DNA from: Gimesia fumaroli
GTDB taxonomy: Bacteria > Planctomycetota > Planctomycetia > Planctomycetales > Planctomycetaceae
Length of the DNA: 64,000 nucleotides
NCBI RefSeq assembly: GCF_007754425.1
Contig: NZ_CP037452.1
Coordinates: 3,137,164 to 3,201,163, forward strand
Direction: 5' to 3'
Position 1 is the stretch's first letter. Each line of letters opens with the position of its first letter. Below are positions 3,363 to 64,000 of the stretch, piece after piece. The notes below the pieces were generated by a model. The model made no database searches and was not told the origin of the DNA. It saw only the letters and a list, made by a program, of their open reading frames with translations. The position numbers and the translations under genes are program-made.

Positions 3363-3428
3363 GGCTGGTATTTTCTCTGGCTGGGGAATCTTTGGGTCGT
3401 GTTACTTCAGGTGCGTTCGGTGGATCAA

Positions 3429-4604
3429 TCAATCCTGTATAATCCATTTCAATGGAAATTTCGCGACTGTCAAGGCGGTTGTGTCGTAACCGTTGTTTTT
3501 GAAGCCCCCATCTTCGTAGAAACAGAAAATGGTGCCGTCAGGGAGGGCCGCGAGATCGCTGTAGCCGCTGATGCCGGGTTCGAGAACCTGTTTACTGATC
3601 CAGGTTTGGCAGTCATCGAAGCTGACTTGCAGCGTCAGGTTTTTACGGTCCCGGTTAGGCTTGCGGCGTTTGGTTTTGTTTTCGAGGTTGTCCGGGTTCG
3701 CAAAGACAATGGCGTTTTTCGGTTGCGCTTTGCTGGCGGGGACTCGGAGAATGCTGGCCATGCAGACCGGTTCTTTGAGTTGATCGTCAAAATGTTTGTC
3801 GGTCCAGTTGGTCGCGCCGTTCTCGCTGACAGCGACCAAACGCCGGTGGGGCTTGGACTCCGTGCGGATGTTGACGAGGACTTTGTTGTTGAAGAGCTGG
3901 ACGGCAACCGTTTCGCTCGGGTTCACAATCGTTTCACCGGCGACTTGGTCTCCCTGCTTGACGATGATCTCGCCGCGTTGCCAGGTTTTGCCGTGATCGT
4001 CGCTGAAGATGGTGGAGACGCAGGAGGGGCGATGTTTCTTACCGCCGGTGGAAAGCCAGACGGGGACGAGCAGTCTACCGTTCTGCAATTGAATGCCGTG
4101 TCCGGGACCGGTGGCGATCACATTCCAGTCGTATTCCTTTTTGAACTGGTTGAAGACGCTGGTGATTTCAACGCGGGGGCTGAAGGTTTTGCCGTCGTCG
4201 TTGCTGCTGATGTAGAAGCAGCGGCTGTAGTTTTCGCAATACAACAGATGTACCTGACCGGTTTGATCGTCAGAGAAGGCGACGACGTTATTGACGGTCT
4301 CCTCTTTGGCATCATGAATCATTTGCACGGGGAGCCAGGTCTTGCCGCCATCGGTGCTGCGGCGCAGCAGAATATCGATGTTCGCCCAGTCGCCGGATGT
4401 GATACGGGCTTCACAGTAGGCGAGCAGTGTGCCCTGTTTCGAAGCGATGATGCCGGGGATGCGGTAATGATGGTATTTGCCATCCCGGGCGTTAAAGAGC
4501 GTGGTTTTCTGGAGGTCGGCGGCCTGACTGACGTCGATACTCACCAGAAACGGCACAAAAAACAGAGCAAACAGGTTCACCGGGCGCAGGGGAATTCGTC
4601 GCAT
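3429..4604 (-). CDS. Exported sialidase-like protein (GH33/BNR repeat)
   Basis: This 391-residue protein has an N-terminal signal peptide (about 1-28) and a six-bladed sialidase pattern. Visible features are the YRIP motif at 47-50 (first catalytic Arg), four Asp boxes (STDGGKTW 83-90, SNDDGKTF near 134, SDDHGKTW 201-208 and a degenerate SFDDCQTW 328-335), a second Arg in NIRTES near 247, a Glu in NPSETVAV near 231 and a likely nucleophile Tyr in SGYSDL near 348. The third Arg of the usual triad was not assigned with certainty. An upstream in-frame TTG at 4625 is possible, but the ATG at 4604 gives a cleaner signal peptide. The gene precedes the FAD oxidoreductase by 66 bases and is divergent from a GntR-type regulator. 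Substrate could be sialic acid or another sugar. Confidence 0.85.
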   Translation of the reverse strand: MRRIPLRPVNLFALFFVPFLVSIDVSQAADLQKTTLFNARDGKYHHYRIPGIIASKQGTLLAYCEARITSGDWANIDILLRRSTDGGKTWLPVQMIHDAKEETVNNVVAFSDDQTGQVHLLYCENYSRCFYISSNDDGKTFSPRVEITSVFNQFKKEYDWNVIATGPGHGIQLQNGRLLVPVWLSTGGKKHRPSCVSTIFSDDHGKTWQRGEIIVKQGDQVAGETIVNPSETVAVQLFNNKVLVNIRTESKPHRRLVAVSENGATNWTDKHFDDQLKEPVCMASILRVPASKAQPKNAIVFANPDNLENKTKRRKPNRDRKNLTLQVSFDDCQTWISKQVLEPGISGYSDLAALPDGTIFCFYEDGGFKNNGYDTTALTVAKFPLKWIIQD

Positions 4605-4735
4605 GTTTCGAGCTTTCCTGATCAAGGTTTAATAATATTATTGTTGCGATATTATTATCTATGGTGTAATATTATAAAAGTCAGCAGCAGATTGAAAGCA
4701 AAAAACGCATTTTTTCCACAGAACGATGTTTGTCT
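4605..4735. promoter_or_regulatory. Divergent control region with AT-rich palindromes
   Basis: This spacer between the sialidase and the GntR-type regulator contains a 12-base perfect palindrome AATAATATTATT (4631-4642). It also has an inverted pair TAATAATAT (4630-4638) and ATATTATTA (4649-4657), and a third related copy TAATATTAT (4667-4675). Clustered palindromes between a regulator and its divergent target are typical operator positions, so these are proposed as binding sites for the adjacent regulator. No convincing -35/-10 pair was assigned. Confidence 0.45.
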
Positions 4736-5791
4736 ATGAAACCAGCGATTATCGATCTGGCCGACCGGATTCAGTCGGACATTCAGAAACGCAAATTAAA
4801 ACCGGGCGATCCCTATTTCACAACGAGTGAGACCGCGCGATCATTCCAGGTGAGCGGCACGACGGCGAATCGGGCGTTGCAGTTACTCACACAGCGAAGG
4901 GTACTGGTGCGGAAGCAACGCGCGGGCACGTTTATCGCCGAGCCGGAATCGAGCGGGTCAACGTCGACGTTACAGCGCGTGCATCTGGTGGTGCATCAAA
5001 AGTTTCTGGAACGGGAAGGTCTGCTGGCCGATGGGATTCTGATTGGCCTGCAGAAGGAACTGCCTGACACTGAGCTGCAGTTTAATTTTCTACCCCACCG
5101 GGAAGAAGAAGAGTATGTCAATGAAGTGGTACATCGCGCACTCAAATCGAGCGAGACAGAGGGCTTTGTTTTGCAGCGTGCTTCCGTAGGCGTGCAACGG
5201 ATACTGGAAGAGAGCGGCTTGCCCACGGTGGTCAATGGCGTATTGCAGCCATCGATTACTGGGCTGGCGCAGATTGACAGGGATCAGAGTCAGATTGGCC
5301 GTCTGTTATTTCAGGAATTGCACCGACAGAAATGTCAGCGAGTGCTGGTTGTCTTGCGCGATCAGGTGACGTCCGGCGATCATGTCATGTTAGATGCTGT
5401 GCAACGCGAGATGAGCCAGTCGGGCTTCGGGCTAGATCAGTTGATGGTGCGATGTCTGCCCGCCGACGATCGGGCGATTCAGATTTCAGCGCTGGATGTG
5501 CTGAAGCAGTCAACCGGGAAACTGGGGATACTCTGTCGATCCGAACCGGCAGCGCGGGCGATTGCCGCGAAGCTTGAGGAAATCACGTTACCGAAATCAA
5601 AACGCCCTGCTCTAGTGGTGGCGGATCGATTCGCGCGTGATGCGACCCCTTGCCCGTTTCCTCATATTCGCGCGGCATTATCGCCGGTGGAATATGGACA
5701 GAAAATCGGCTCCATGCTGATCCGCCAGGTGAAAGGAGAATCAGCAGAGAGCCTGTATGAACGCGTGGAAGTCGAACTGGTCATCCTTTGA
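4736..5791 (+). CDS. GntR/LacI-hybrid transcriptional regulator
   Basis: The 351-residue protein has a GntR-type winged helix at about 1-70 (LADRIQSDIQKRKLKPGDPY, then SETARSFQVSGTTANRALQLL and a wing with RAGTFI) and a C-terminal periplasmic-binding-like ligand domain of the LacI/GalR kind (about 85-350). This architecture is common in sugar-responsive regulators. An in-frame TTG lies two codons upstream of the ATG chosen here. It is divergent from the sialidase and FAD oxidoreductase genes and is inferred to control them through the AT-rich palindromes in the spacer. The ligand is unknown. Confidence 0.85.
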   Translation: MKPAIIDLADRIQSDIQKRKLKPGDPYFTTSETARSFQVSGTTANRALQLLTQRRVLVRKQRAGTFIAEPESSGSTSTLQRVHLVVHQKFLEREGLLADGILIGLQKELPDTELQFNFLPHREEEEYVNEVVHRALKSSETEGFVLQRASVGVQRILEESGLPTVVNGVLQPSITGLAQIDRDQSQIGRLLFQELHRQKCQRVLVVLRDQVTSGDHVMLDAVQREMSQSGFGLDQLMVRCLPADDRAIQISALDVLKQSTGKLGILCRSEPAARAIAAKLEEITLPKSKRPALVVADRFARDATPCPFPHIRAALSPVEYGQKIGSMLIRQVKGESAESLYERVEVELVIL

Positions 5792-30042: not shown

Positions 30043-33000
30043 TTATTTCATTTTCAGGACGCGTTCAATTTCTCGGCTTAGTAATGTGTATTGCATTTGA
30101 TTCATCATTTGAATCATCTCAGCTTCAGACGCATTCTCACCGGGCGGCCATTTGACACCGCTGGCCTCAGCCAGTTCTCTCATATAGGTCTCACGATTCT
30201 TCGATGGTTCCACATCACTCCGAAATGTGATCTTGCCATCTGTGTTGATCACGATCAGTGCCGGGTAACCCTGCACGCCGTATTTCTCACCAGTCACACT
30301 GTCCAGAATTGAAGTACCTCGATCAATTCCAGTGGGAATTGTCCATTGTTCACTCTGTTTCAATTTATTGATCTGACTCATTTCGCCGTCCGCGGTATGA
30401 ATGCCGAGAAAGACCACACCCTGCTTTGCAAATTTCTTTTCCAGTCTCTTCTGAGCGGGTATGGAAGTGACACAACCACTGCAGCTTAGTCCCCAGAAAT
30501 CGAGTACCACAACTTGTCCGCGATAGTCGGATAATTTGCGGGTACGCCCATCAGACCATTCTGCGATCTCCCACGTGGGGGCGATCTGCCCCACGGTTAG
30601 TGGTTTGGCCTTTTCTGCCTGGGTTGTCGTAGCAGATGAGAACTCCTTCAGGTGAATGGTCACTTCTCGATTTTCAGACTCATTATTACTGATCACCAGG
30701 TTGATCCATTTTATTTTCGTTCCCCAACGCACGGAAGCCCGAATTACGCCGCTGGGTAAGTCTTTTAGGATTGCCCGCCCATCGGTGGATGTGCGAACAA
30801 TTTGTCTTCTTAAAGCATAACTGTTTCCTGGTTCCACAATTGCTCCGGGGAGCGGTTTTCCCTGTTCATCCAGAACGCGTATTGGCAGTGAATAGCCGCG
30901 ATTGAGTGTGAGTGTTTTGAAGTCGATGGGGACAAAGTTTTTTGAAACAGCAATGCTTCTTGAATCCATGCCCGCATAACCTTTTTGGGTCAGAACTACT
31001 GAAAACTGCAGTTTATCAGCAGCTTGGTTTCCATAATCATAAATGGGAAAATCGAGTGAGAAGCTACCGTCGAGTGCACTTTTTGTTGAAACACCAGTAT
31101 CACCACTTCCGCCTCCCTGTGTGCCAGAGACCACTCCAACGCGTACCTCCGTTAACGGTTTTCCTTCCGCATCGACAACACGACCGACCAGCTTTTGATT
31201 GCCGACTGGTTTTGATGCCTTGGGGACAAATATGAGGAGCGGTACACCGTTATTGATCGTGGCAGTTCCATTTTTAATGGTTGCTTTCCTTCCTTCCTTG
31301 TCCATCATTTGTGTGGTGTTTGAATCAGGTAAACGCCTTAGAGCGACGACTTGAGAATTGTCAAAGCCAGGGGCGACGATCAACTCGGCTGACATATTGA
31401 CCAGAGTTAAAATATATTTACCGCTGGTACCAACCTCAGTCAGTTGGCCACGACCTTCTTCGTCCAGGTAATTCATGGAAGTCGCATTCGCTTTCTGGAA
31501 TGAGACTGGTTCTCCCTTCAGCCAGGCAGCCCGTTTCGCATCATCCGCAACCTCCTGCACAGAGGCCAACAATCGAACAGGTTGATCCTTGTTTTGCACG
31601 CCTAATTGTTGGCGTTGTTGTTGGTTGAGCTTGCCTTTCCAATGTACGTTCCAGACCGCTCCTGTTTGTGCCTGTAGATCATGATTCACAATCGGCTTCT
31701 CTGGAGTTGTCACTAAGGCTTGCATGGATTCTTCCGGCATGAGCCAATACCCGGGCTTTAATGTTGGAAACCAGAGTTGCACATTTCCTAAAGGTACCTC
31801 AATGCGATACCGCCCTGCTTCGTTCGTCGTTCCTTTGAGTACTCTCTTGTCAGGATCTGGTTCTGATGCCACCAGTATCTGGATTTCAGCATTCGTCACT
31901 GGCTTTCCAGTCTGAGTATCTTGCACGGTACCGGAAATGAAATACTGGTTTTGTTTCTTGTTGTCTGGCACTGTTTCTTTTTCAGGAGATGCTGTCGCAG
32001 GGGTCGGGCTGCTTTTTTCCTGAGTTTGTGCTACATCGCTTAAGCCGGTCACAAACAGGATCAGCAACAGGCCCATGGCAAGTGCTGACTTTGAGCGGCT
32101 GTCTTGAATTGGTGATGTTAGCTGATTGATGCGGACACGCAGCGCAGAACGTTTGCCCGCCATGGGGAGTGCAGCGACAGGTCCCTGTGTCTGCTGTGCC
32201 AGACGAATTAATAACTCACCATAATCATGACGTGCCTGCTCATCGAAATTGGTAACCGTTGCTGAATCGACAGCCAGTTCGATTTCACGGCGCATGCGGT
32301 TGCTGATCAGATAGACCAATGGGTTGAACCAGTGAACAGTGATTGCGATTCGACTGATGAGCATCAGTAAGACATCCTGTCGGTGAATGTGTTCCAGTTC
32401 ATGAATCACGATCGTCTGACGATCTTCTTCTGCGAAATCGGACCACAAGTTTAAGGGCAATAAAATGGTGGGCCGCCAGAATCCACAAGAGGACGGGCCT
32501 ATAGGATCGTTCGTAACGAAACAGCGAACCGGGAACCAATGTTGATTCCGTTTTTGTATCGCTTCAATCAGTTTAAGCAGACCTGCATCCTGGAGCTGTT
32601 CGCTGTTTTTGATGATGCGGGCCAGTATGATTCTGGAACCGATCCATCTGCAAAGGACAATACAACTGCCAGTCAACCAAAGATAAGTGAGGAGCCTGGA
32701 AACTAAAATGGGGGCATTGGTTCGGGACTCTTCAGATCGCGTGATTGAAGTCTGAGATACGCTGTACTCTTGAGCGGTCTCCGTTCGTGAGATCCGATGA
32801 TTTGGCTGAAGCGAATCCAAGGTTGGAATCAATCCGATGTCTCCGGTTCCAGAGAAAGAGATTGCGACTGCGGGAGTCGGATTTTGACTTTCGAAATTGA
32901 GTAAATAGAAGAGACTCAATCCACTAGCTGGAATCATTAATAAAACCAGACGAGCCAGTGGAATGGCCCACAAAAGCGCACGCCATTTGGGGGAAATCCA

Positions 33001-33111
33001 GCGGTGCAATGTTGAAGTCAAACAAAGAATAATGCCAGCCAGGACGAATGCCTGCCAGGTTGCCCGCCAGATAAGTGCTAATAACGCGGTCCATTCAAAA
33101 TCGAAGTTCAT
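30043..33111 (-). CDS. BlaR1-like M56 membrane peptidase with carboxypeptidase-regulatory domains and TlpA-like thioredoxin
   Basis: The 1022-residue protein has N-terminal membrane segments (about 10-34, 43-71 and 140-162) and the M56 zinc site IVIHELEHIHRQD (HELEH 237-241), then another membrane segment near 340-360. This part resembles the BlaR1/MecR1 sensor-protease. It continues into carboxypeptidase-regulatory-like beta domains (about 388-480 and 635-790) and ends in a TlpA/thioredoxin-like domain with FWGLSCSGC (C877, C880) and a downstream cis-Pro region. The start overlaps the BlaI-like gene stop (ATGA). It is a probable signal-sensing protease whose external part carries a redox domain; the signal is unknown. 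Confidence 0.88.
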   Translation of the reverse strand: MNFDFEWTALLALIWRATWQAFVLAGIILCLTSTLHRWISPKWRALLWAIPLARLVLLMIPASGLSLFYLLNFESQNPTPAVAISFSGTGDIGLIPTLDSLQPNHRISRTETAQEYSVSQTSITRSEESRTNAPILVSRLLTYLWLTGSCIVLCRWIGSRIILARIIKNSEQLQDAGLLKLIEAIQKRNQHWFPVRCFVTNDPIGPSSCGFWRPTILLPLNLWSDFAEEDRQTIVIHELEHIHRQDVLLMLISRIAITVHWFNPLVYLISNRMRREIELAVDSATVTNFDEQARHDYGELLIRLAQQTQGPVAALPMAGKRSALRVRINQLTSPIQDSRSKSALAMGLLLILFVTGLSDVAQTQEKSSPTPATASPEKETVPDNKKQNQYFISGTVQDTQTGKPVTNAEIQILVASEPDPDKRVLKGTTNEAGRYRIEVPLGNVQLWFPTLKPGYWLMPEESMQALVTTPEKPIVNHDLQAQTGAVWNVHWKGKLNQQQRQQLGVQNKDQPVRLLASVQEVADDAKRAAWLKGEPVSFQKANATSMNYLDEEGRGQLTEVGTSGKYILTLVNMSAELIVAPGFDNSQVVALRRLPDSNTTQMMDKEGRKATIKNGTATINNGVPLLIFVPKASKPVGNQKLVGRVVDAEGKPLTEVRVGVVSGTQGGGSGDTGVSTKSALDGSFSLDFPIYDYGNQAADKLQFSVVLTQKGYAGMDSRSIAVSKNFVPIDFKTLTLNRGYSLPIRVLDEQGKPLPGAIVEPGNSYALRRQIVRTSTDGRAILKDLPSGVIRASVRWGTKIKWINLVISNNESENREVTIHLKEFSSATTTQAEKAKPLTVGQIAPTWEIAEWSDGRTRKLSDYRGQVVVLDFWGLSCSGCVTSIPAQKRLEKKFAKQGVVFLGIHTADGEMSQINKLKQSEQWTIPTGIDRGTSILDSVTGEKYGVQGYPALIVINTDGKITFRSDVEPSKNRETYMRELAEASGVKWPPGENASEAEMIQMMNQMQYTLLSREIERVLKMK

Positions 33112-33554
33112 GATTTCTTTCTCCGGGTTGAAGAGGATCTGCTGGTACGTTGGTCAGCTTTCGGCTGGGATTTTTTCGTGAGACGTTCGTCTAAGCGTTG
33201 CCTGAGTTCTTTCACTTCTTTTTCAGAGAGCGTTTCATTTTCGACAAAATGCATCAATAGGGACTGTAGGTTCCCGGCAAAGAATTGTTCCGTGAAGGAA
33301 CGGGCTGCCAGTCGAACGCATTCATCTCGCGAGATGGCCGCGCTGTAGAGATGGCGCGAGCCATCAACACGTACAGCAACAGCACCTTTTTCAACCAGGC
33401 GTGCAAGAAGCGTTCGCACCGTTCGATGGCTTCGCTCACGAATCGGTTCGACGCGAGCGATGATTTCACCGGCTGTCTGGTCCTTCGCTTCCCAGACACT
33501 CAGCATGACCTCCCATTCTGCATCTGTGATTTGTAATTCGGGTTGCTGGCTCAT
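33108..33554 (-). CDS. BlaI/MecI/CopY-family repressor
   Basis: The 148-residue product has a penicillinase-repressor winged helix (ITDAEWEVMLSVWEAKDQTA, then SHRTVRTLLARLVEKGAV) and a helical C-terminal dimerisation part. The ATG at 33554 with AGGAGG upstream is preferred over an extension to 33605. Its stop overlaps the start of the M56 gene by four bases, a standard BlaI-BlaR1 pair arrangement. No beta-lactamase is nearby, so the regulated genes may be elsewhere or the operon itself. Confidence 0.92.
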   Translation of the reverse strand: MSQQPELQITDAEWEVMLSVWEAKDQTAGEIIARVEPIRERSHRTVRTLLARLVEKGAVAVRVDGSRHLYSAAISRDECVRLAARSFTEQFFAGNLQSLLMHFVENETLSEKEVKELRQRLDERLTKKSQPKADQRTSRSSSTRRKKS

Positions 33555-33567
33555 GCGGCCTCCTGTG

Positions 33568-33614
33568 ACTACGTGTGTAGTAATGTGTTTGCGTAGTGTT
33601 ACCACAGGTGTAGT
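33568..33614. promoter_or_regulatory. Candidate BlaI-type operator region
   Basis: Directly upstream of the BlaI-like gene is the inverted repeat ACTAC-GTGT-GTAGT (33568-33581), followed by two more GTAGT boxes (33593-33597 and 33610-33614). BlaI-type repressors bind TAC/GTA inverted repeats upstream of their own operon, so this is proposed as the autoregulatory operator. It fits in sequence and position, but has no direct proof. Confidence 0.6.
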
Positions 33615-33849: not shown

Positions 33850-35853
33850 TTATTTTTCTTCTTCCGGACGCCGCCATTCTCCGCGCATCCAATTGACGAG
33901 CAAATTCAGATCGTGTTGGGAGAGTTTCGATTCTTCGAACGCGGGCATGATGTTCTTGTCACTATAGAAGTGTTCTGCGCCCGGATTGCGAATGAAATCG
34001 GAGAGCCATTTGTCAGAGCCGTAACCGTTCAAATCGGGAGCAGCACCGCCTCCCTCTTCTTCAGGGTCACCGGCTTTCATGGCGTGGCACTGGGCGCAGT
34101 AACCGTCAAAGTCGACTACTTTCCCAGATTTATCTTTAAAGTCGATGCCGCTGAAGACAGACACGCCGCGTTTCATGACCGCTTCGCTGAGCGGTTCCGC
34201 ATTCCGGTGTTTGGCTTCGCGTGCGATGAGTGCCGAGACGGCTTCGATATCTTCTTTCGAGAGTACGCCTTCCGGACCGACATAGCTGTCAGCCCAGTCG
34301 CTCATGTCTCCGTGTAGAATCGCGTCACCCCCTTTTGATGATCCGAGGTGCCCAAAAAACTTGGGCGCTGTCGGATCTGTCAGAAATTCCGCAATCCATT
34401 CTTTCGAAGCAAATCCTGCCAGATCGGATGCACGGGGAGTCGCTTTGACTTTTTTGCCGTCTTTCATTTCCATGATATTGAGACCTGTTCCGTCATGGCC
34501 GTTCCACGTATGGCAGACTCCACAGTGCCGTGCAAAAATCAACGGTCCCATCGACTTGGGGTCGTTTCGCAGTAGCGAAGCGGGTCCTTCCGGGGGTACA
34601 CCGTTTTCTTTAGCCAGCCAGGAAGCACGGGCGGCATAGGCGATTTCCTGTGAACGTTTCAAAGCGTAGTCGGGCGCACTTCGCTCGGTTTTAACGCTAT
34701 ACCAGCTGATGCCGGAAATGATTACTAAACCGCCTACATAAACGGCAATCGCCAGACGCTGTCCCCATTTCTCTCCAAAGAATTTTTCGTAAAAGGGAAC
34801 CATGATCAAAATGGCCAGAAGCACACCGGGCAGCACCGCAGTAACCAGGACTTCCAGTTCTTTGGGAACCATATGTCTAAGTTCAAACAGAAATCGTACA
34901 AACCACTCGGGACGTGCGATAAAGGGAATCGAACTGTCGCTGACGGCGGGTGCTTCGAGTTTGATCTCGCTGAGCGGCATGTCCATTTCCCATTCCGCCA
35001 GTTCTGGAGCCACATGTTGATTTTTAAGGGTAGGATAAACGACCATCTGGAGAATCACGATCCCGATCAGGATCAGGGTTAATACCAGAGTACGCGTCGT
35101 CTGATAAGGCCAGTAAGGTTGAGTGATTTCATCTTTGACCGGATCATCATCATCCAGTTCAAAATCGATTTCCGGATCATCGGCGGCTTCTTTGATTTTC
35201 ATGGTCCGCAGGCGGTCTCGACGCACCAGGGCCATGTGAATCGTAAACAGCAGAATGGCTAAGACAGGCAGCACGATGACGTGAATTGTGTAGAGCCGTG
35301 TTAAAGTCAGGTTCCCGAATTCACTTCCGCCGACGATGATGGAACGGAGTGAGGAACCGATGACCGGCATGGTACCTGCGATTCCTGTTTCAATTTGATA
35401 AGACCAGTAGCCTTTCTGATCCCAGGGCAATGGATTTCCAGTGATAGTGAGACCCACTATTACGCCGCCAATCAAGAGGCTGGTCCAGTAAATAAATTCT
35501 TTCGGCTTGCGATAACCGGCTGAAATGATGACTAGAAAAATATGAATGATGACCGCGACAATCATCATGTGGGCGACATAATGATGCAGGCCACGTACAA
35601 ACCAGCCCAAGTCAACTTGTGTTTCAATATAATGCACGCTCCCCCAGGCGGCGGCTTCAGATGGGCTGTAGACCGTCATTAACAAAGTACCAGTGACGAT
35701 TTCCAGCAACATCAACAGGACCAGAGCCCCGCCCCAGATATTCTGCCAGCGGGAGCGTCTCTTCGTGGGGAAATTCAATAAAAAGATCGCATGGAAGAAG
35801 TTCTTGTAGCCGGTTCTCTCGTCGATCCACTGTTTGGTTTTTTCTGACAGCAC
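33850..35853 (-). CDS. b6-type cytochrome b fused to subunit-IV-like part and two c-type haem domains
   Basis: The 667-residue protein has a four-helix cytochrome b core with His pairs H90/H104 and H191/H206. The 13-residue spacing in the first helix and 14-residue spacing in the second is that of cytochrome b6. After a charged linker it has three more membrane segments with PEWF in place of the PEWY/PPEWY quinol-site motif (subunit IV-like). It ends with two cytochrome c motifs, CGVCH (444-448) and CAQCH (586-590). The start is a GTG at 35853 with GGGAGA upstream. It would form a quinol:cytochrome c oxidoreductase with the Rieske protein encoded just upstream, moving electrons from quinol to c haems at the membrane. 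Confidence 0.92.
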   Translation of the reverse strand: MLSEKTKQWIDERTGYKNFFHAIFLLNFPTKRRSRWQNIWGGALVLLMLLEIVTGTLLMTVYSPSEAAAWGSVHYIETQVDLGWFVRGLHHYVAHMMIVAVIIHIFLVIISAGYRKPKEFIYWTSLLIGGVIVGLTITGNPLPWDQKGYWSYQIETGIAGTMPVIGSSLRSIIVGGSEFGNLTLTRLYTIHVIVLPVLAILLFTIHMALVRRDRLRTMKIKEAADDPEIDFELDDDDPVKDEITQPYWPYQTTRTLVLTLILIGIVILQMVVYPTLKNQHVAPELAEWEMDMPLSEIKLEAPAVSDSSIPFIARPEWFVRFLFELRHMVPKELEVLVTAVLPGVLLAILIMVPFYEKFFGEKWGQRLAIAVYVGGLVIISGISWYSVKTERSAPDYALKRSQEIAYAARASWLAKENGVPPEGPASLLRNDPKSMGPLIFARHCGVCHTWNGHDGTGLNIMEMKDGKKVKATPRASDLAGFASKEWIAEFLTDPTAPKFFGHLGSSKGGDAILHGDMSDWADSYVGPEGVLSKEDIEAVSALIAREAKHRNAEPLSEAVMKRGVSVFSGIDFKDKSGKVVDFDGYCAQCHAMKAGDPEEEGGGAAPDLNGYGSDKWLSDFIRNPGAEHFYSDKNIMPAFEESKLSQHDLNLLVNWMRGEWRRPEEEK

Positions 35854-48529: not shown

Positions 48530-50524
48530 TTACTCTGATTCGTTGTCACTTTGACTGTCAGTACCAGTTTCTTTGGCACTATCAAGCTTTGCTTGTTCCC
48601 GAACCGAAACGCCAATCAGACGCTTGATGTCATTACTGTCAATGGCCTCTTGTTCTACGAGTGCTTTTGCCAGCAGGTCAAGTTTCTCCCTGTTTTCTGT
48701 TAATATTTCTTCTGCCCGTTGTTCAGCCGCGTTTAAAAAACGCTGCATTTCCTGGTCGATGACGTGGGCGGTTTCTTCACTACATTCGCCCTGTGATTTC
48801 ATCTCTTTTCCAAGGAACGGGTTTTCATCCGAATGGCGAAACGCCACCGGTCCGATGACATCACTCATGCCCCACTGCCCCACCATTTTTCGTGTGATCT
48901 GGGTCGCCCGTTTGATGTCATCTGCTGCTCCGGCTGTATGTTCGCCGAAGACAATACCTTCCGCAGCCCGACCACCCAACATGAATGCTAATTGAGAGTG
49001 AAGTTGCTTCTCTCCCATGTTATAGCGTTCTTCATCAGGCAAGAGCTGTGTTACGCCGAGTGCTCTACCACGAGGAATCACCGTGACTTTGTGTACCGGA
49101 TCAATCTCCGGAAGCAACCAGGCCAATAACGCATGGCCGGCTTCATGGTAGGCTGTCATTTCACGTTCTTTTTCGCTCAAAATCTCCTCACGTTCTGGTC
49201 CCATCAAAACACGATCCCGAGCATTATCAAAGTCTTCCTTATCGACCTGGTCTTTGTTAAGACGTGTTGCCGAAAGAGCCGCTTCATTCACCAGATTCTT
49301 CAGGTCGGCACCAGAAAAACCAATCGTACCAGCGGCGATATTATTCAGGTCGACATCATCTGAAAGCGGGATTTTCCGCGAGTGAACTTTCAGGATTGCG
49401 GCACGTCCTTCTTTAGTGGGACGATCCACGGTGATGTGCCTGTCAAAACGTCCGGGACGCAGCAATGCCGGATCTAAAACATCCGGACGGTTGGTTGCTG
49501 CTATTATGATTACCGCTTCGTTTTGCTGGAAACCATCCATTTCACTAAGCATCTGATTTAATGTCTGTTCGCGTTCATCATGTCCACCTCCGAGGCCAGC
49601 ACCTCGAATTCGTCCCACGGCATCAATTTCATCGACGAAGATGATACAGGGGGCATTTTCTTTAGCAGTTCGGAACAGGTCCCGTACACGGCTGGCGCCG
49701 ACGCCGACAAACATCTGAATGAATTCCGACCCGTTTATGGAATAGAAAGGAACGCCAGCTTCACCGGCCGTTGCGCGAGCTAATAAGGTTTTCCCGGTTC
49801 CGGGAGAACCCATCAGCAAGACGCCTTTGGGGATTTGTGCGCCAAGACGCTGGAACTTGGCTGGTGTCTTCAGGAATTCAACAACTTCCTGTAATTCCGA
49901 TTTGGCTTGCTCCATCGCTGCCACATCGTCAAATGTGGTTTGTTCTTCAGAGGGGCGGAATCGCTTTGCCGGACTCTTGGTGAAATTTCCAAGCATTCCT
50001 GAACCCATGGGGTCGGCAGAACGACGCAGCATGAACCAGAAGAACCCAATGATCAACAGCGGGCCGATCAACCAGGGGATGATGTAAGTGCCGATGCCGA
50101 CATTGGTGCTTTCCGCCTTGAAATCGACTTTCTGTTTGATGAGTTCGGGAACCAGATCTCGATCTTCGACGGGATGTGAGGGCAGAACGGTATTGAACTC
50201 TTCTGCCAGTTTTTCGTCTTTCTTTTCTTTGTCTGGATTCTCAGGGCGAATCTTCCACTTCCCGGTTAGGATGTCACCATGGAAATCGACAGATTCTACA
50301 TTGCCACGATTCAGCTCAGAAATGAAAAAACTGTAGTCTACTTTCGATCCCGTATTTTCCGGCGAGGATTTCATCATGATCAGGCTGCCGATAACCAGAA
50401 TCAGCAGGATGATCAGCCAGGGACCTGTTGAGGGAGCGGCGCCCTGAGAGTCTTTGCCTGGTTGCTTTTGAGGGGCTTTGCCTTTGGGAGGATTCTCTTG
50501 GGGGTTCTCCGGAGGAGAGGCCAT
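48530..50524 (-). CDS. ftsH: ATP-dependent zinc metalloprotease FtsH
   Basis: The 664-residue protein has two membrane segments (about 35-51 and 148-166) and an AAA module with Walker A GSPGTGKT (239-246), Walker B IIFVDEID (294-301), and an SRH ending in RPGRFDRH. The zinc site HEAGH is at 460-464, with a downstream Asp in the peptidase domain. It degrades membrane and soluble proteins at the cytoplasmic membrane. The N-terminus is extended by a Pro/Gln/Lys-rich stretch of about 34 residues before the first membrane segment. The DEAD-box gene follows on the same strand. Confidence 0.95.
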
Positions 50525-55878: not shown

Positions 55879-56718
55879 ATGCAGAAAACTGCTCGACGGC
55901 GTTCCTCTTCAGCCGTACAGAATCCGTTAGAAACATATCTCAAAGAAATCAACGAAACCGCCCTGCTCACTGCAGAAGAAGAGAAGGAGCTTTCGAACCG
56001 AATTGAAAACGGTGATAAAGAAGCCCGCGACCGCATGGTGCGAGCGAATCTGCGGCTCGTTGTGAATATCGCACGAGCGTATTCAGGTAAAGGTCTGCCA
56101 CTTCAGGACTTGATTGAAGAAGGCAACCTGGGTCTCCTTAGAGCTGTTGAGGGTTTTGATCCCGAGATGGGAACCCGCTTCAGTACCTACGCCAGTTACT
56201 GGATCAAACAGTCGATCAAACGGGCGCTGGTGAATTCCGCGAAGACGATTCGGATTCCCGCCTATATGGTTGAACTTTTGACCAAATGGCGACGTGCCAC
56301 TGCTCAGCTACAAGACACCCTGGATCGAACTCCCACGACAGAAGAAGTGGCCAAAGAACTCGACCTGCCTCCTAAAAAGTTGAAGATCGTCAAGAAAGCG
56401 ATTCAGCTTTATAATTCGTCGCCTCAATCCGAACAGCATGAAGCCGGCTGGTCACTGGGAGAGATGATTCCCGATGACCGTTTAAAAGGTCCGGATGACG
56501 AGCTGGTTGAGAATGACAATCTGAAACATGTCTATCGATTGCTGAAAGAAATTCCGGATCGCGAAGCCAGCATTCTACGGATGCGGTTTGGTCTGGATGG
56601 TGACGAACCCAAAACATTAAAAGAGATCGGTCAGGAATTAGGTTTGACACGGGAACGCGTGCGTCAGATCGAGAGTGAAGCACTCAAAAAACTGGCCAAG
56701 GAAATTTCCGGCGAGTAA
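55879..56718 (+). CDS. Sigma-70 family RNA polymerase sigma factor (group 2 type)
   Basis: The 279-residue protein has sigma region 1.2 (PLETYLKEINETALLTAEEE), region 2 with VRANLRLVVNIARAYSGKG, LQDLIEEGNLGLLRAVEGFD and FSTYASYWIKQSI, region 3 with RIPAYMVELLTKWRRA, and region 4 with REASILRMRFGLDGDEP and a helix-turn-helix TLKEIGQELGLTRERVRQIE. It lacks the long region 1.1 of a primary sigma factor, so it is more likely an alternative, RpoS/SigB-like group 2 factor. It is convergent with the caspase-like gene. Confidence 0.93.
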   Translation: MQKTARRRSSSAVQNPLETYLKEINETALLTAEEEKELSNRIENGDKEARDRMVRANLRLVVNIARAYSGKGLPLQDLIEEGNLGLLRAVEGFDPEMGTRFSTYASYWIKQSIKRALVNSAKTIRIPAYMVELLTKWRRATAQLQDTLDRTPTTEEVAKELDLPPKKLKIVKKAIQLYNSSPQSEQHEAGWSLGEMIPDDRLKGPDDELVENDNLKHVYRLLKEIPDREASILRMRFGLDGDEPKTLKEIGQELGLTRERVRQIESEALKKLAKEISGE

Positions 56719-56756: not shown

Positions 56757-57824
56757 TTATCTGCCGGTCTTTTTTGCATTAATGGGCACGACCATCGGAT
56801 CGAAAATGACCTGCTGTTGTTTTAAATCAATTCTGCGGTAGACGTGTGCCAGTTGAAGCATCAGGGGTTCGAGTTTCTGGTAGTACTCATCAGAACTGGA
56901 AAACTTAGCTTTGCGCTGTTTGAGTGCGAGTATCTGGAGTTCCAGTTTATCACGTTTCAATTTCTGTTCGCCGGAAACCTGTGTAATTGGTTGTGTCGCG
57001 AACAGGGTGAATTGATGGGCCCGGTGCCCATCAGGTAATGTCACCGTCGCAGAATGGGAATCCGGGAGCCGATTCAGGCCTTGAAATTGATCGCCGCGGG
57101 TTCCCCGCTGATCGGCATTGTCATCCAGCAGTGCGTGCTCGGTGGCCAGTTCTCCTTTTTCCTGATAATAGGCGTTCGTTTCGCGGCAAGCAGCCAGATA
57201 GGCTTCCAGCAGCGAGACCTGACCGTCATGATCCAGGTCAGCCTCGGGCTGAGAGCTGGCTTCGGAAAGAAAATTTCCAAAGTGGGAAAAGTAGAATTCG
57301 TGTCCGTTTTTGGTCGCTGAAATAATTACACGATTGTCTGCGGACAGCGCGTTCAAAAAAGGGCCGCTGGACGAAAAACAATTGAGAATGGCCAGCGGAT
57401 GCTTGATAGCATCACAAGACTGACACAGTTGGTCAGCGGTGAGATCGGGGCCACGCAAGTTGAAGCGGGCGGTTTTGCCATCAAATGTGCCGTGTCCGAT
57501 CAGGATTATCCAGGTCGCCGTGGTTTCGCTGGTTTGATGCTGCAGTTCTCGGGTAATGAGTTCCAAATCAGAATGGCGTGCATCGACGCTTTCACCAATC
57601 ACCGTCAGCTCGGCTTGTTTATGAGCGGCGATTTGCTTCCAGCGCTTCGACCAGCGGTCAAACTGCTGTTCATATTCTTCCAGGCCTCCGGCGCCGATCA
57701 CAACGATCATGCGCTCTGTTTTATTGATGGGAGATTCACTCTCCGCGTTCAAAGGTATAGCGTTGATCAATGTCAAAAGACAAATCAGTATCGTTAAGAA
57801 TCCAGTATGGAATTGATTGTGCAT
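56757..57824 (-). CDS. Exported caspase-like (C13/C14-fold) protein with EF-hand-like loop
   Basis: The 355-residue protein has a signal peptide (about 1-27). A caspase-hemoglobinase fold domain follows, with the catalytic His in ILIGHGTFDG (H111) and Cys in AILNCFSSSGPF (C149), plus RVIISATKNGHEFYFSHFG. A calcium-loop-like DLDHDGQVSLLE lies at 196-207, then LLDDNADQRGTRG, a block shared with C13-type proteins. A helical tail with Lys/Gln ends it. The start at 57824 overlaps the stop of the upstream VWA protein gene (TGATG), so translation is likely coupled. It is the last gene of the operon. Confidence 0.82.
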   Translation of the reverse strand: MHNQFHTGFLTILICLLTLINAIPLNAESESPINKTERMIVVIGAGGLEEYEQQFDRWSKRWKQIAAHKQAELTVIGESVDARHSDLELITRELQHQTSETTATWIILIGHGTFDGKTARFNLRGPDLTADQLCQSCDAIKHPLAILNCFSSSGPFLNALSADNRVIISATKNGHEFYFSHFGNFLSEASSQPEADLDHDGQVSLLEAYLAACRETNAYYQEKGELATEHALLDDNADQRGTRGDQFQGLNRLPDSHSATVTLPDGHRAHQFTLFATQPITQVSGEQKLKRDKLELQILALKQRKAKFSSSDEYYQKLEPLMLQLAHVYRRIDLKQQQVIFDPMVVPINAKKTGR

Positions 57825-60157
57825 CAGGGTAATCCTTTCCAGCGTCGTAATGACCACTCACCAAATAGACAACCCAGGACGAATACCAGGACCCAGGGAT
57901 GATGCCACAGCGGACTGACTGACTCTTCCGTCACAGGCATGTGACGTTGATCCAGAGAATGAACGAATTGTGACATTTTGCCTGCCGGGATGACTTCGCC
58001 CTTTGTGTGTGTGGCAAGCTGCAGCAGTCGTTTGTGATCAGGTTTGATCGACTGGAATTCCCGACTGCCCGGGTCATGCACCCAGCCGCTATGAATTGTT
58101 TTCGTTTTGGAATCGGGGGCGGTTACCTTAGCAGAAATCGAATAGCCGCCCGGTTGAGGGGGCAGGTAAACGGTCTGGTACTCACCAGGCTTGTCGGCTG
58201 TCGGATCAGCGGTCAGTTTGATGGTTTCGTTTTCCGGTGTGGTGATTTCCAGTTCTACCTGATAATCGCTGCGTTTCTGGAATTCCGGATCTCGGACGTG
58301 TACTTTAATTTTCGTGCCGGAATATTCTTCCAGGTTCGTATTGACCAGGAGATCAACGGGCTCGAGGACATCCGTTGTCATCCAGCGTAATAATTGCCGC
58401 CAGGACTTATACAGTTGGGGAGACGTGGAATCCTCTTTCAGTCGCCAGCGCCAGAGATCGCCTATCATGACGGCGGTGACACGTCCCAGACCGTATCGTT
58501 GTGTGGCAATCGCCGGATACACGGCCTTTTGGGGGCTCTTCAATTCTGCCGCCAAGGTGGCACCAGGCTTGGTGGTATCCACTCGATTGATCGTTTTGAA
58601 AGTTGGCATTTCTGTCAGGCGTTTGTGTTCTTCCTGTTCCTGTTTGTGATGCCGCATCCAAGGGTGGAGCCAGCCATCGCGGGTCAATGTGAACTGGTAA
58701 TCACTCTCGAAGGCAGACGCATCTCTTTGCGGAAAATAGATCGGCAACAGGCGGCTTAACTCCGTTTTATCATAGCCTCCTTTTTGAAACGATTCCTGCC
58801 CGCCGAGCATCACTAGTCCGCCGCCCCGCTCTGAGACAAAGCGGGTGATCAGTTCCTGCTGGTCGTGTGTGAAGAAGGCCGCTTCCAGATCGTCGATGAT
58901 CAAGGTTTCATACTGAAAGAGCTCCTCTTCCGTTTTGGGGAAGCCGTCTTTGAGCTCATCGGGAGATTGTGTATTAATCCGCACGAAAACTGGCTGGTCA
59001 TAGCGTTCCAGATCAGCTTCATTTTTGGGATCAAAACCCCGGAAAAGCGCGTTTCCTTCTTCCCCGTCCCGGCTGCGAAAATCGAATTTGGTTTCTTTTT
59101 TGCCGATGCGGATCAGACCCACCAGGTGAATGAATTCATCTTCCTCAATTGCCCGTCGCAGGAATTTGAATTCCCAGTTCGGGCGACCTGAGACATACAG
59201 CACGCGATGTGCAGTGCGGCCGCGATCAAGCTTCAGGGTGCGTTGGTTATTGGCTAGCGTGGCTTCGTTCGTGTCTTCTGCGATCAGTGACGTTTTAATC
59301 TGATAAAAGGCAATGCCTGTTGCTTCAGGACGAACTTGAAAGCGAATCTGGAATTGTTGTTCGGGCTGACTGACTTCACGGGTTACTGTCTCGACGACCT
59401 TGCCTGTTTCATCCAGCAGTTGAGCTTTGAGCTGTTTCTGCTGACACTGTGATGCGGAAAGGTCGGCGAGAATTCGAATGGGTGCGTCTTCAAAGGGGGA
59501 ATAGCTGACAGAGGTTTTCGTGATCGCCAGATCGGTTGCCGGCTGGGAATTTCCGATGGCAACCGGGTAAATGGGGATCGAAGTTTCCAGCCGACTGATT
59601 TCTTCGGCAGAAATACCATCGGTCATCAGCAGAATACCCGCTAAGGGGAGTTTTTGATAGCGGCGAGTTAATTCATTCAGACCGGAGACGAGGTTGGTCT
59701 GGGAACCGTCAAAGGTCAGATGCTGCAGACTGGTCTGGGCGTGTGCATGGGCATCGAGGGAATATTTCCGGACAGAAAAATTCTGTTCCAGGTCACGCAT
59801 CCACTGCGGCGCTGTCTGCTCTGAATCGTTTGTTGTGAGCAGTTGTTGGATTTGTTGCAGGCGCGGTTGGCCTGTTTGGGGATCTTTGGTTTTCAGGCTC
59901 TGGCTGTCGTCTACTACAATCGCGAACAGATTGGTTCCGGGATGAATCCGCACGCCGCTCCATAACGGCTCGGTGAGGGCAATCGAAAGCACTGCGATGC
60001 CGCACAGTTTCAAACTGAAGGCGATTCCCGCCAGCGAACGTTGCAGAGTGAGTGAGCGGTAGGCATAGATCAACAGAGCCAGTCCCATAATGATGACTGC
60101 GATCGTGATCGTGGTCCAGTCGGGGGCGCCGAATTGGATTTGGGCCAGGCAATTCAT
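57824..60157 (-). CDS. VWA and GATase-like membrane protein
   Basis: The 777-residue protein has two N-terminal membrane helices (about 13-32 and 45-62). A von Willebrand A domain follows, with MIDAS residues in VDDSQSL (83-87, DxSxS) and LLMTDGIS near 178. A middle glutamine-amidotransferase-like region contains GGGLVMLGGQESFQKGGYD but lacks an obvious catalytic Cys nucleophile. One C-terminal membrane helix (HHPWVLVFVLGCLFGEW) ends it. It is related to BatA/BatB-type and planctomycete 'VWA/glutamine amidotransferase' proteins. Its start overlaps the stop of the DUF4175-like gene (ATGA) and its stop overlaps the caspase-like start. Confidence 0.82.
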   Translation of the reverse strand: MNCLAQIQFGAPDWTTITIAVIIMGLALLIYAYRSLTLQRSLAGIAFSLKLCGIAVLSIALTEPLWSGVRIHPGTNLFAIVVDDSQSLKTKDPQTGQPRLQQIQQLLTTNDSEQTAPQWMRDLEQNFSVRKYSLDAHAHAQTSLQHLTFDGSQTNLVSGLNELTRRYQKLPLAGILLMTDGISAEEISRLETSIPIYPVAIGNSQPATDLAITKTSVSYSPFEDAPIRILADLSASQCQQKQLKAQLLDETGKVVETVTREVSQPEQQFQIRFQVRPEATGIAFYQIKTSLIAEDTNEATLANNQRTLKLDRGRTAHRVLYVSGRPNWEFKFLRRAIEEDEFIHLVGLIRIGKKETKFDFRSRDGEEGNALFRGFDPKNEADLERYDQPVFVRINTQSPDELKDGFPKTEEELFQYETLIIDDLEAAFFTHDQQELITRFVSERGGGLVMLGGQESFQKGGYDKTELSRLLPIYFPQRDASAFESDYQFTLTRDGWLHPWMRHHKQEQEEHKRLTEMPTFKTINRVDTTKPGATLAAELKSPQKAVYPAIATQRYGLGRVTAVMIGDLWRWRLKEDSTSPQLYKSWRQLLRWMTTDVLEPVDLLVNTNLEEYSGTKIKVHVRDPEFQKRSDYQVELEITTPENETIKLTADPTADKPGEYQTVYLPPQPGGYSISAKVTAPDSKTKTIHSGWVHDPGSREFQSIKPDHKRLLQLATHTKGEVIPAGKMSQFVHSLDQRHMPVTEESVSPLWHHPWVLVFVLGCLFGEWSLRRWKGLP

Positions 60158-63100
60158 TTTCCACTCCCTAATTCTTCATAGTAACGACGGACCAGCTCAG
60201 AGTATTTTTCCGGTACCGGGTCCCGGTCAATCGGTGCCAACGATGTCTGCGCGCCTCGTTTGCTGATTTCGTTTGACAATACTTTTTGAAGTTCAGCCAG
60301 CGGTTCCAGGATTTGTGCATTGACCAAGTCTCCCTCAGGTACTTTGGAATGTCGTTTGAACTCGGCACGCATACTTTGTGCCCGTTCACGAATCTGAGCG
60401 ACTTTACTACGAAGTTCGGAATCTCCCACCATTTCTTCGACGTCCCGCATACGGTCGGACCATTCGCGGAACTGGTTGCCGGTGATAGGTCCCGTTGATG
60501 GTGCGCCAGGCCCTCCCTGGCCTCCACCGGGTCCGCCTTTCGGACTGCCGCGAGAACCTTTCAGTGATTTGGAGGAAGTTGATTTTGATGACGACTGTGA
60601 ATTTGACGGAGATGAGGATTTGCCAGAGCCTGATTGAGAGCCCTGCCCTTTGCCTTTTTGGGCTGAGGCTAGTTGTACCGGTGATTTGCCTTGCCCTGAG
60701 GGGGAACCAGATTTACCCGGTTGACCGGATTTGGTTCCCGGAGACGGTTTTTGTCCGGGAGATTTCCCTTTTCCGGACTGGGCCGTTTTTTGTGCAGCCT
60801 GTTTTGGCTGGCCTGCTGCTTGGGGATTGCCGGCCAGTTTCTGTTCCTGTTTCATTTCTGAGGTGAGCGATTTGATTTCCTGTCGGGCTCGCTTGAGTGA
60901 TTCCAGATCGTTGCCCAGCACACTTTCGGCGGCGACTTTGATTCCCTGTTTCATTTTCTCGATCCCCTGCCCGGCACGTTGCTCGGCCTGTTGTGCCCGT
61001 TCGGTAGCGCCTTCTTTCAGGAAGTTGGCGGCGTTCTTTAACGCATCTTCCGGGCGATAGGGTCTTGTTTTACGAATGGCATCGTACAGATGCTTGGAAA
61101 GCAGCGGCTCCGACTTTTCAGACTCCTTAACGACTTTTTTCATCTGCTCTACCAGGTTTTTCAAGCGGTCTTCCTGCTTCTCTAGTTGATCGGCCAGTTT
61201 CTGCTGTCCCTGATTTTTTCTCAGAGATCGCCGTCCCTTGGCTTGGTCTGGCTGGTTTGATTTGTTAAGAGCCTGGTTCAGTTCTTTCTGTTTTTGATCG
61301 AGTTGTTCGGCCTGCTGATTCAGAGAACGCATGGCGTCAGCAAATTGGTTGGCGGTTTTTTTACGGAATTCGTTTTTGAGCTGATTCAACTGCTGCTGTG
61401 CGCGGGTCCCGGAATTCAGGGCGCGTGAGACCTGCCCTTCTTTGAGCGATTGTGAGCTTTGTTGCAGATGTTTGCGTGTCTGTTCGAGTTCACGTCGGGA
61501 TTTGGTTGATGAGGGTTGTTTCGATTGATCCATGCGCTGGGCAACTTCATCCGCTTTGCGAAGAAGTTCGCGTTGTCGTTCGCGTAAGCGTTTGAGCTGG
61601 CGTTCGATTTCTTCACGTTCCTGATCGGTTTTCGCGAAACGTTGTTTGTCGGCCAGCTCTTTGAGTTGTTCGTTCAGATCCTTTTGGCGTTGTGCCAGTT
61701 CTCGCAGCCGATTGAGGATTTGCAGCGATTCACGGTTCGGCTGTGCAGCCGGTGGTTGGGATGCCTGATTCTCTGTTTCATAACGTTGTTTTTTGTTGGT
61801 CAGTTCCAGTTGTTGCAGTTGATTCTGTGAACGGCTGCTGCCGCCCCCTTTACTGCCGCCTCCATTTTTGTTTTGGGAGACCTTGTGTTCGCGGGCGCGC
61901 AGTTTTAACAGGAGCTGATAACTGGCTTGTTCTGTCGCCAGAGCGGCGGTCAGTTGTTCAACTTCATTGGCATCTTTCGCTGCGTTGAGTAGTGAAACGG
62001 TTTCCTGCATCTTTTGTGAGATGGAATCGATCACCGCTTTTGATTTTTGTGATTTCACTTTTGAGGCCAAATTGATGACTGCGGTTACTAGTGCCTGCTG
62101 TGCTTGTTGTAGTGTGTTTACGTCTTCTGCGTACTGGCTGGATACGGTCTCCTTGATTTCGCGACGGATGATTTTCCAGGTCGCATTGATGATCTGTTTT
62201 TGTTGCTCTGCCAGTTTTTCAGCCTGTTGGGCATTGCCACCACTTTTTCCGGATTTTGAGGAACTGTTGGCAGAGCGGCCTTGCTTGAAGATTTCTTCAA
62301 AGTGGCGGACTTCCATGAAATACATGTCACTGAGCACCTTGCGTCTGCTGCCGTCAGGGGCGATGTCTTCCGCAAACAGGTGATACGAAATCAGTGTGTC
62401 GGGTTGAACCTGCAGCTGCTCCAGAGAGAGGAGATGCTCGGTTGCCACCTCCTGCTTAGGTTTTGCTGTGCTAAGTAATTTCAGGGTTTGGGTAGACTGA
62501 CCGGGAATCGAATAGACGAGTCCTACCTGTTGCACGCCGAAATCATCGACTACGGTCCCTTGAACCAGTGCTTCCTCCAGCGGAGAGACGCGTGTATCAC
62601 GGCCCGGGAATGTAACTTTAATTTCCGGTGGCAGGTTGGGAATAACGGTGAGATCTATGAAAGGCTGCGCACGGTTTTCGCGTTCGTCAGCATCGATAAT
62701 CCGCAGGTTCCAGGACTGGCTTTCTGTGGCTAAAAACCTGAGCCGGGCGACGAAACCATCGGAACTGACCTCCATTGGGAGTGTCTTCCCTGTTCCCGTT
62801 TTCAGTTGAGCTTGTTTTACAGGTTTGTTGAACTTAGCGATGAATGCGATTTTCGAGCCAGTAATCGCACTGATGGTCAGGCTGTCTTCAACAGTTCGCG
62901 TAGGTAGCCCCGTGTAGTTGGGGGGAATGATCATCGAATCCAGTTGGACCAGTTTTGGCAGGACATAGACTTTGACCTGATAGGTTTCTGATTCCCAGTC
63001 ATTCACTTGTACCGAGTAAGTAAGATCCTCGCTCACGTCAGTTAGCCGGGCGGCAAAAACCGGGTCGTCCAGGTGTTTGACGAGCGGCAGTTTCTGAGTT

Positions 63101-63801
63101 TCTCCTGATGCCGCGCGGATGTGCAGGCTTGCGATATCGGGGATTTTCTCTGTGAATCGTGCGGTGATCAGGAGAGGGTGATTTTTTTCCAGATCGGTGG
63201 TTCCCGGTTTGATTTCGACCTGAAACTGTGCTTGTGTGGAAGCGATTGTCGTCTGCAGTTCGCCTTTAGGAATGGGGGCCGCCTTCAAGTAAAACCAGCA
63301 GGTGAGACAACTGATGAACCAGGCGGTAAAACAGACGAGGTGTGTTGTGCTTTGCAGGATCAGTCTGCGGTTGGAGATCGTCTGTCGCCAATCGTGTTCG
63401 GTTCCATGCTGAATGACTTGTTGGATCAGCCGATTTTGTAGAAAAGTGGGAAGCGTTTCATCGGTTGTTTTTTCCAGTTCCAGTGTGGCTAGCAGGCTGG
63501 TGTCCAGATCCGGGTAGGTTTGTTCAATTAAAGTGGCGATTTGATGGCGGCTGGCAGGAGAAACACGACTTCGGAAGCGGAACAGGAGCATTCCTATTGC
63601 GACCAGACATGGTACTCCCAGCAACACTGCCAGAAATAAGTGTTGATAATACGGTGCGGCAATTGGTTCGAGGAATGTGAAGGTCAGTAGTGTCAGGCTA
63701 CCGGCAATCAGCCAGAGGATGGTCAATCGTTTGAGATTCTGGCTGGTCTGGTAACGAAAGACGACCTGGTTAAGTTGTTGTAAGAGATCGGGCAGGCCCA
63801 T
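60154..63801 (-). CDS. Large coiled-coil membrane protein (DUF4175-like)
   Basis: The 1215-residue protein has N-terminal membrane helices (about 23-65 and near 150-175). A beta-rich, probably periplasmic region (about 185-500) comes next, then a very long Gln/Lys/Glu-rich coiled-coil region (about 520-1030) with repeats such as QKDLNEQLKELADKQRF, and a Ser/Gly/Lys low-complexity stretch (about 1040-1120) before a short C-terminal domain. It resembles planctomycete DUF4175-type proteins encoded in Bat-like operons. The ATG at 63801 is two bases after the stop of the upstream BatA-like gene; an upstream extension overlapping that gene is unlikely. Confidence 0.8.
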   Translation of the reverse strand: MGLPDLLQQLNQVVFRYQTSQNLKRLTILWLIAGSLTLLTFTFLEPIAAPYYQHLFLAVLLGVPCLVAIGMLLFRFRSRVSPASRHQIATLIEQTYPDLDTSLLATLELEKTTDETLPTFLQNRLIQQVIQHGTEHDWRQTISNRRLILQSTTHLVCFTAWFISCLTCWFYLKAAPIPKGELQTTIASTQAQFQVEIKPGTTDLEKNHPLLITARFTEKIPDIASLHIRAASGETQKLPLVKHLDDPVFAARLTDVSEDLTYSVQVNDWESETYQVKVYVLPKLVQLDSMIIPPNYTGLPTRTVEDSLTISAITGSKIAFIAKFNKPVKQAQLKTGTGKTLPMEVSSDGFVARLRFLATESQSWNLRIIDADERENRAQPFIDLTVIPNLPPEIKVTFPGRDTRVSPLEEALVQGTVVDDFGVQQVGLVYSIPGQSTQTLKLLSTAKPKQEVATEHLLSLEQLQVQPDTLISYHLFAEDIAPDGSRRKVLSDMYFMEVRHFEEIFKQGRSANSSSKSGKSGGNAQQAEKLAEQQKQIINATWKIIRREIKETVSSQYAEDVNTLQQAQQALVTAVINLASKVKSQKSKAVIDSISQKMQETVSLLNAAKDANEVEQLTAALATEQASYQLLLKLRAREHKVSQNKNGGGSKGGGSSRSQNQLQQLELTNKKQRYETENQASQPPAAQPNRESLQILNRLRELAQRQKDLNEQLKELADKQRFAKTDQEREEIERQLKRLRERQRELLRKADEVAQRMDQSKQPSSTKSRRELEQTRKHLQQSSQSLKEGQVSRALNSGTRAQQQLNQLKNEFRKKTANQFADAMRSLNQQAEQLDQKQKELNQALNKSNQPDQAKGRRSLRKNQGQQKLADQLEKQEDRLKNLVEQMKKVVKESEKSEPLLSKHLYDAIRKTRPYRPEDALKNAANFLKEGATERAQQAEQRAGQGIEKMKQGIKVAAESVLGNDLESLKRARQEIKSLTSEMKQEQKLAGNPQAAGQPKQAAQKTAQSGKGKSPGQKPSPGTKSGQPGKSGSPSGQGKSPVQLASAQKGKGQGSQSGSGKSSSPSNSQSSSKSTSSKSLKGSRGSPKGGPGGGQGGPGAPSTGPITGNQFREWSDRMRDVEEMVGDSELRSKVAQIRERAQSMRAEFKRHSKVPEGDLVNAQILEPLAELQKVLSNEISKRGAQTSLAPIDRDPVPEKYSELVRRYYEELGSGK

Positions 63802-63803
63802 AA

Positions 63804-64000
63804 TTACGCCTTTCGTGTCGCTGATGTTTTGCCGGCGATCCATTTCGCCAGCACTGTTTCCAGACCGAGCATCGCCAGCGCGACGATGATCAGCCAACGC
63901 CAGATTTTCTGTTTCTGTTCCATCTCCCGGATTAACGCTTGGCGTTTGAGGTCGGCGTGGGTGGAATTGGCGGCAGTGGTTTTACTGTGGCTGAGCAGCT
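63804..64000 (-). CDS. BatA-like membrane protein, C-terminal end (5' end outside window)
   Basis: Only the last 65 codons are inside the window. They encode a hydrophilic stretch with HADLKRQALIREMEQKQK, a single membrane helix (IWRWLIIVALAMLGLETVLA) and a basic tail ending at the TAA 63806-63804. A C-terminal membrane helix followed by a short basic tail, directly upstream of the DUF4175-like gene, fits the BatA/VWA proteins of MoxR-associated operons. The identity is inferred from position and tail only. Confidence 0.55.
   Translation of the reverse strand, partial: LLSHSKTTAANSTHADLKRQALIREMEQKQKIWRWLIIVALAMLGLETVLAKWIAGKTSATRKA

Follow-up and report, generated by a model that had tools for sequence, protein, structure and literature searches.

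MoxR ATPases paired with DUF58 and BatA/VWA membrane proteins are found in the bat operons of Bacteroides, Leptospira and Borrelia, and in the cmdA-D operon of Rhizobium leguminosarum (RL3499-RL3502), for which envelope and morphology defects have been reported (PMC5700661). Deletion of bat genes in Leptospira left growth, morphology and the oxidative-stress response all unchanged (PMC3557215), and the function of MoxR/DUF58/Bat operons is a long-open question. MoxR and VWA proteins also occur in ternary conflict systems, whose third components are VMAP, iSTAND, FtsH or a beta-propeller, and some of these systems carry caspase-like domains or belong to planctomycetes (Kaur et al. 2020, PMC7159879). 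Two families of caspase-fold proteins serve for comparison below. The legumain or C13 peptidases of clan CD, which include the GPI transamidase PIG-K, use Cys189 (legumain numbering) as the catalytic residue (PMC9579014). The cyanobacterial pseudo-orthocaspases, C14 proteins in which Tyr and Ser replace the catalytic His and Cys (PMC6426788), are the nearest precedent for catalytically degenerate caspase homologues in bacteria.

The window, a 64,000-nucleotide stretch of the 7.70 Mb genome of Gimesia fumaroli, carries the downstream end of an operon of eight minus-strand genes, in the order TPR/peptidase-MA, DUF4159, MoxR, DUF58, BatA, DUF4175, VWA/GATase-like and caspase-like. The four genes inside the window (Table 1) lie exactly where the original prediction had placed them, and its three junctions were all recovered: a 2-base gap between BatA and DUF4175 (TAA-TT-ATG, BatA stop codon at 63804-63806), an ATGA overlap between DUF4175 and VWA/GATase, and a TGATG overlap between VWA/GATase and the caspase-like gene. 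MoxR and DUF58 genes had also been expected just past position 64000, and are there. Beyond that position follow the remainder of BatA (PF07584; 699 aa in all, the gene extending to about 65903), DUF58 (PF01882), MoxR (PF07726), DUF4159 (PF13709) and the TPR protein with a peptidase-MA domain. Since PF07726, PF01882 and PF07584 all score over their cut-offs in adjoining genes, the locus belongs to the Bat-type MoxR set (AAA_3 with DUF58 and BatA/VWA). It shares MoxR, DUF58 and the BatA/VWA membrane proteins with the bat and cmd operons, and differs from them in adding DUF4159, DUF4175, the peptidase-MA TPR protein and a legumain-fold protein. A convergent sigma-factor-like gene (55879-56718) ends 38 bases from the operon end, near which there is one weak terminator-like match. 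The first gene of the operon (L002, 12959-15616) encodes a TPR protein whose peptidase-MA domain is accompanied by an HExxH motif, and this protein may be the operon's real protease.

Table 1. Features of the downstream end of the operon within the window
Feature	Position	Strand	Remarks
Caspase/legumain-fold protein, exported, last operon gene	56757..57824	-	355 aa from ATG; legumain match
VWA + GATase1-like membrane protein	57824..60157	-	777 aa; PF07090 slightly above cut-off
DUF4175-like membrane protein, long coiled coil	60154..63801	-	1215 aa; PF13779 E 9.9e-5, under curated cut-off
BatA/VWA protein, C-terminal end	63804..64000	-	PF07584 E 1.7e-16 + VWA_2
Putative signal peptide, residues 1-27	57744..57824	-	Hydrophobic 7-25 and signal-peptidase-like NA/ES site
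H111 codon, GHG motif	57492..57494	-	Invariant in 46/46 orthologues
C149 codon, nucleophile in the original prediction	57378..57380	-	Pairs with legumain E187
S151 codon	57372..57374	-	Pairs with legumain catalytic Cys189
EF-hand-like loop DLDHDGQVSLLE, residues 196-207	57204..57239	-	DxDxDGxxxxxE
Second acidic loop TEHALLDDNADQRG, residues 228-241, candidate second metal site	57102..57143	-	
C-terminal helical hairpin, residues 285-337	56814..56972	-	Modelled helices 285-303 and 311-337

Conserved synteny in other planctomycete genomes, likewise anticipated, was found: the VWA/GATase gene lies directly upstream of the caspase-like gene in 44 of 46 orthologues, and the upstream operon order is usually the same too, as far as the contigs reach. 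At five loci (L056, L116, L118, L124, L125) the retrieved stretch showed only part of the gene set preceding VWA/GATase, or none of it, so the full order is not universal. Adjacency fails in two orthologues: L037, whose start is close to the end of its contig, and the gene of genome G017 (L052/L137), which is kept about 90 kb away from an otherwise complete operon. At four distant loci (L128, L130-L132) the adjacency holds at about 25% identity. The TGATG overlap is present in 16/16 Gimesia-type genomes, and in many other genomes the two genes overlap by ATGA at this junction or are only a few bases apart. Recurring in dozens of genomes, and with the overlap in every Gimesia-type genome, the arrangement is far beyond chance.

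The two genes are also present or absent together. A full-length VWA/GATase orthologue (980-1131 bits) was recovered from all six genomes searched that carry the caspase-like gene, and from none of the 12 searched that do not, where the best score was at most 194 bits. Nor was an orthologue found in 10 further relatives without the caspase-like gene (completeness at least 86%), which gave short partial matches at 25-47% and longer, general-family ones at 25-29%. In one genome lacking the caspase-like gene, G006 (76% complete), there is a fragment of VWA/GATase at 75%. The contig of L037 is titled Pedosphaera parvula (Verrucomicrobia) while its protein nests among Planctomycetia orthologues, and it is probably a misnamed or contaminated MAG. 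Caspase-like paralogues lie directly beside other MoxR-DUF58 genes at two loci (L060, 6086-9074; L061, 2800-5792); neither has a Cys at column 149 or 151, and their position indicates that an operon of a second type either acquired or retained the pairing. At a single distant locus (L132, 8555-10579) a Sortilin/BNR beta-propeller protein stands behind the caspase-like gene, recalling the propeller partner of MoxR-vWA-propeller systems.

No Pfam model matched the caspase-like protein of the window, and searches of NCBIfam, PADLOC and PDB sequences with this protein alone returned nothing useful; a family profile likewise found no match among PDB sequences. The predicted caspase fold was nevertheless borne out by structure. 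An AlphaFold2 model built on 25 homologues (mean pLDDT 84, pTM 0.79) has solved-structure matches at Z of about 16-19, the best by Z being legumain 4nol (Z 18.8, rmsd 2.9 over 195 residues), and the top rows by Z are all legumains (Z 17.8-18.8, rmsd 2.4-3.1). Foldseek E-values rank caspases first whereas Z-scores rank legumains first, and we followed the Z-scores for the nearest branch. The caspase/haemoglobinase fold is thus firm, and by Z its nearest branch is legumain. This placement agrees with weak Pfam C13 matches in 4 of 25 members (best E 6e-4 to 9e-4); the two such members with scores shown both fall under the PF01650 curated cut-off, and a PF01650 search in relatives gave three short weak matches and no more. 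With legumain and C13 the protein shares the fold, the GHG histidine and an SG motif after strand 4. It differs in having Ser, Ala or Pro at the Cys column, in its EF-hand and second acidic loop, and in the C-terminal helical hairpin, of which E295 and Y314 are invariant in the 30 orthologues from outside the genus.

The assignment of the Cys column depends on the alignment register. The legumain fragment in the alignment was checked against PDB chains and carries their letters. With three different family profiles, hhalign placed S151 on Cys189, C149 on E187 and S153-G154 on S191-G192, at low probabilities (10-58%), and the register was therefore checked by a gapless scan. In the strand-4 block, offset 38 scored +9.3 against -5.9 for the next best, and offset 40, which puts C149 on Cys189, scored -10.6. 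For the distant set, the score at offset 38 was +16.5. The strand-5 block alone favours offset 36; a small gap between strands 4 and 5 is possible, and would leave the strand-4 pairing unaffected. The legumain-type His-Gly pair after strand 3 is present throughout, and the Cys after strand 4 in its xACxSG context is not: at column 151, 39 of the orthologues have Ser, six have Ala and one has Pro, so that on this alignment the canonical legumain Cys is absent from all 46. For this reason we do not file the protein as a C13 peptidase despite its legumain shape. Like the pseudo-orthocaspases it has a caspase fold, probably catalytically degenerate and conserved in bacteria, with Ser now at the Cys column; unlike them it keeps the His, has a legumain-like fold, is exported and is bound to MoxR/Bat genes in an operon.

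Both acidic loops, in contrast to the nucleophile, are kept. The EF-hand-like loop noticed in the original prediction is present and nearly invariant, with D196, D200 and E207 unchanged in 46/46 orthologues and D198 in 44/46, and the Pfam EF-hand_5 model matches 7 of 25 members (best 8.2e-6). The second acidic loop follows the pattern TEHxxLDDNxDxxG almost unchanged across orthologues, with T228, E229, D234, D235, D238 and G241 invariant in 46/46. Among the 30 non-Gimesia orthologues 35 positions do not vary, including D196, D198, D200, E207, E229, D234, D235, D238 and G241. The two loops probably bind calcium, and their retention where the nucleophile is absent suggests that the protein serves in binding or as a scaffold.

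Export had been proposed as well, and the N-terminus is indeed signal-peptide-like, the model showing a helix at residues 7-20 followed by a low-confidence linker. The VWA/GATase protein has three modelled transmembrane helices (12-34, 40-61 and 754-774), and its MIDAS residues D83, S85 and D180 are invariant and S87 nearly so. Basic residues lie between its first two helices and after the last one, which by the positive-inside rule predicts its large domains to be periplasmic. The legumain-fold and VWA/GATase proteins would then meet outside the cytoplasm.

We favour, with modest confidence, the view that the exported legumain-fold protein forms the terminal subunit, on the periplasmic side, of a MoxR/Bat-type envelope machine, and is most likely a pseudopeptidase. 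The position of the legumain nucleophile holds Ser or Ala, and peptide cutting would not be the protein's conserved function. In such a machine BatA, DUF4175 and the VWA/GATase-like protein would make up a membrane assembly that the MoxR ATPase and DUF58 power or remodel from the cytoplasm. The legumain-fold protein would attach to the VWA/GATase-like protein on its outer side and stabilise or gate the assembly, its own fold held by calcium in the EF-hand loop and the second acidic loop. The envelope role is modelled by analogy on Rhizobium cmdA-D (PMC5700661), and the lack of a phenotype on bat deletion in Leptospira makes this step weak. We consider it an even call whether, across several planctomycete families, exported calcium-stabilised legumain-fold pseudopeptidases form a family that serves as a dedicated structural subunit of this machine, the canonical cysteine being gone and the fold, the histidine and the two metal loops kept. 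We found no description of a legumain-fold pseudopeptidase family of planctomycete Bat operons in the literature searched, which left most subscription journals outside. A soluble exported subunit with strict co-occurrence offers a handle on the function of these operons.

A pointer towards retained activity is the histidine, whose invariance would be unusual if catalysis were lost. The original prediction paired it with C149 as a His/Cys dyad; both residues are present, but C149 does not hold up as a kept nucleophile. A periplasmic cysteine peptidase that is active through H111 and a nucleophile displaced by two residues, and that calcium and the VWA/GATase protein switch on, would suit the location of C149 at the end of modelled strand 4, close to where the nucleophile normally lies, and its retention in 39/46 orthologues, which shows that it is under some constraint; the calcium-dependent metacaspases and gingipain are precedents (PMC4357240). 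Yet C149 pairs with legumain E187, and it has become Ala or Thr in 7 of the 30 non-Gimesia orthologues, a pattern for which the tree requires no fewer than six changes. Six of those seven keep the same operon position (the seventh, L037, is at a contig start), and three distant relatives (L130, L132, L135) have a Cys exactly at column 151 instead, so we regard this peptidase as unlikely. A serine-type hydrolase built on S151 and H111 would draw on the prevalence of Ser at column 151 beside the invariant His, but the Ala and Pro replacements at that column include syntenic orthologues, and we know of no active Ser variant in the caspase/legumain fold. This option seems to us very improbable, and the Ser variants of cyanobacteria are presumed inactive (PMC6426788).

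Pseudopeptidase or not, the protein could be a passenger, translated with the operon and working elsewhere in the cell envelope, as the distant gene of G017 might suggest; the adjacency in nearly all orthologues and the clean co-occurrence with VWA/GATase make this rather unlikely. The original prediction had instead seen kinship with MoxR-VWA conflict systems, some of which combine caspase-like domains with planctomycete hosts (PMC7159879), and the MoxR of the operon does exceed the bpMoxR cut-off, at 37.9 bits against 209 for AAA_3. That kinship was not upheld. In the conflict systems MoxR and VWA proteins work with a third component, and no VMAP, STAND, FtsH or propeller domain was recognised in the eight operon genes, by a domain search in which no dedicated VMAP or iSTAND models were singled out; the FtsH gene at 48533-50524 is not part of the operon and encodes an ordinary M41 protease. 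The MoxR partners here are DUF58 and BatA, in a gene set of the Bat/DUF4159/DUF4175 kind, and one stable operon has been inherited across families in place of variable effectors. The caspase-like protein, moreover, is exported and lacks the canonical nucleophile, and PADLOC matched neither it nor the VWA/GATase protein. The one PADLOC match, a weak one to LmuB, lies on the low-complexity coiled coil of the DUF4175 protein (E 6e-5), and that identity was set aside. A conflict or cell-death effector under a MoxR-VWA switch is accordingly not supported, and we hold it to be highly unlikely. 'Caspase-like' calls in planctomycetes do not per se amount to programmed cell death, the protein of this window being one without the canonical nucleophile.

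Elsewhere in the window, a minus-strand gene at 30046-33111 encodes a BlaR1-type M56 peptidase fused to carboxypeptidase-regulatory domains, with an AhpC/TSA redoxin domain at the C-terminus. It overlaps an upstream 165-aa ORF (33108-33605) that may encode a putative BlaI-like repressor of the fusion. At 3-4739 two alternative ORFs occupy opposite strands, one of 1551 aa on the plus strand (84-4736), for which Pfam has no match, and one of 1120 aa on the minus strand. A further minus-strand gene, at 33853-35853, encodes a single polypeptide made of cytochrome b and, at its C-terminal end, two cytochrome c domains.
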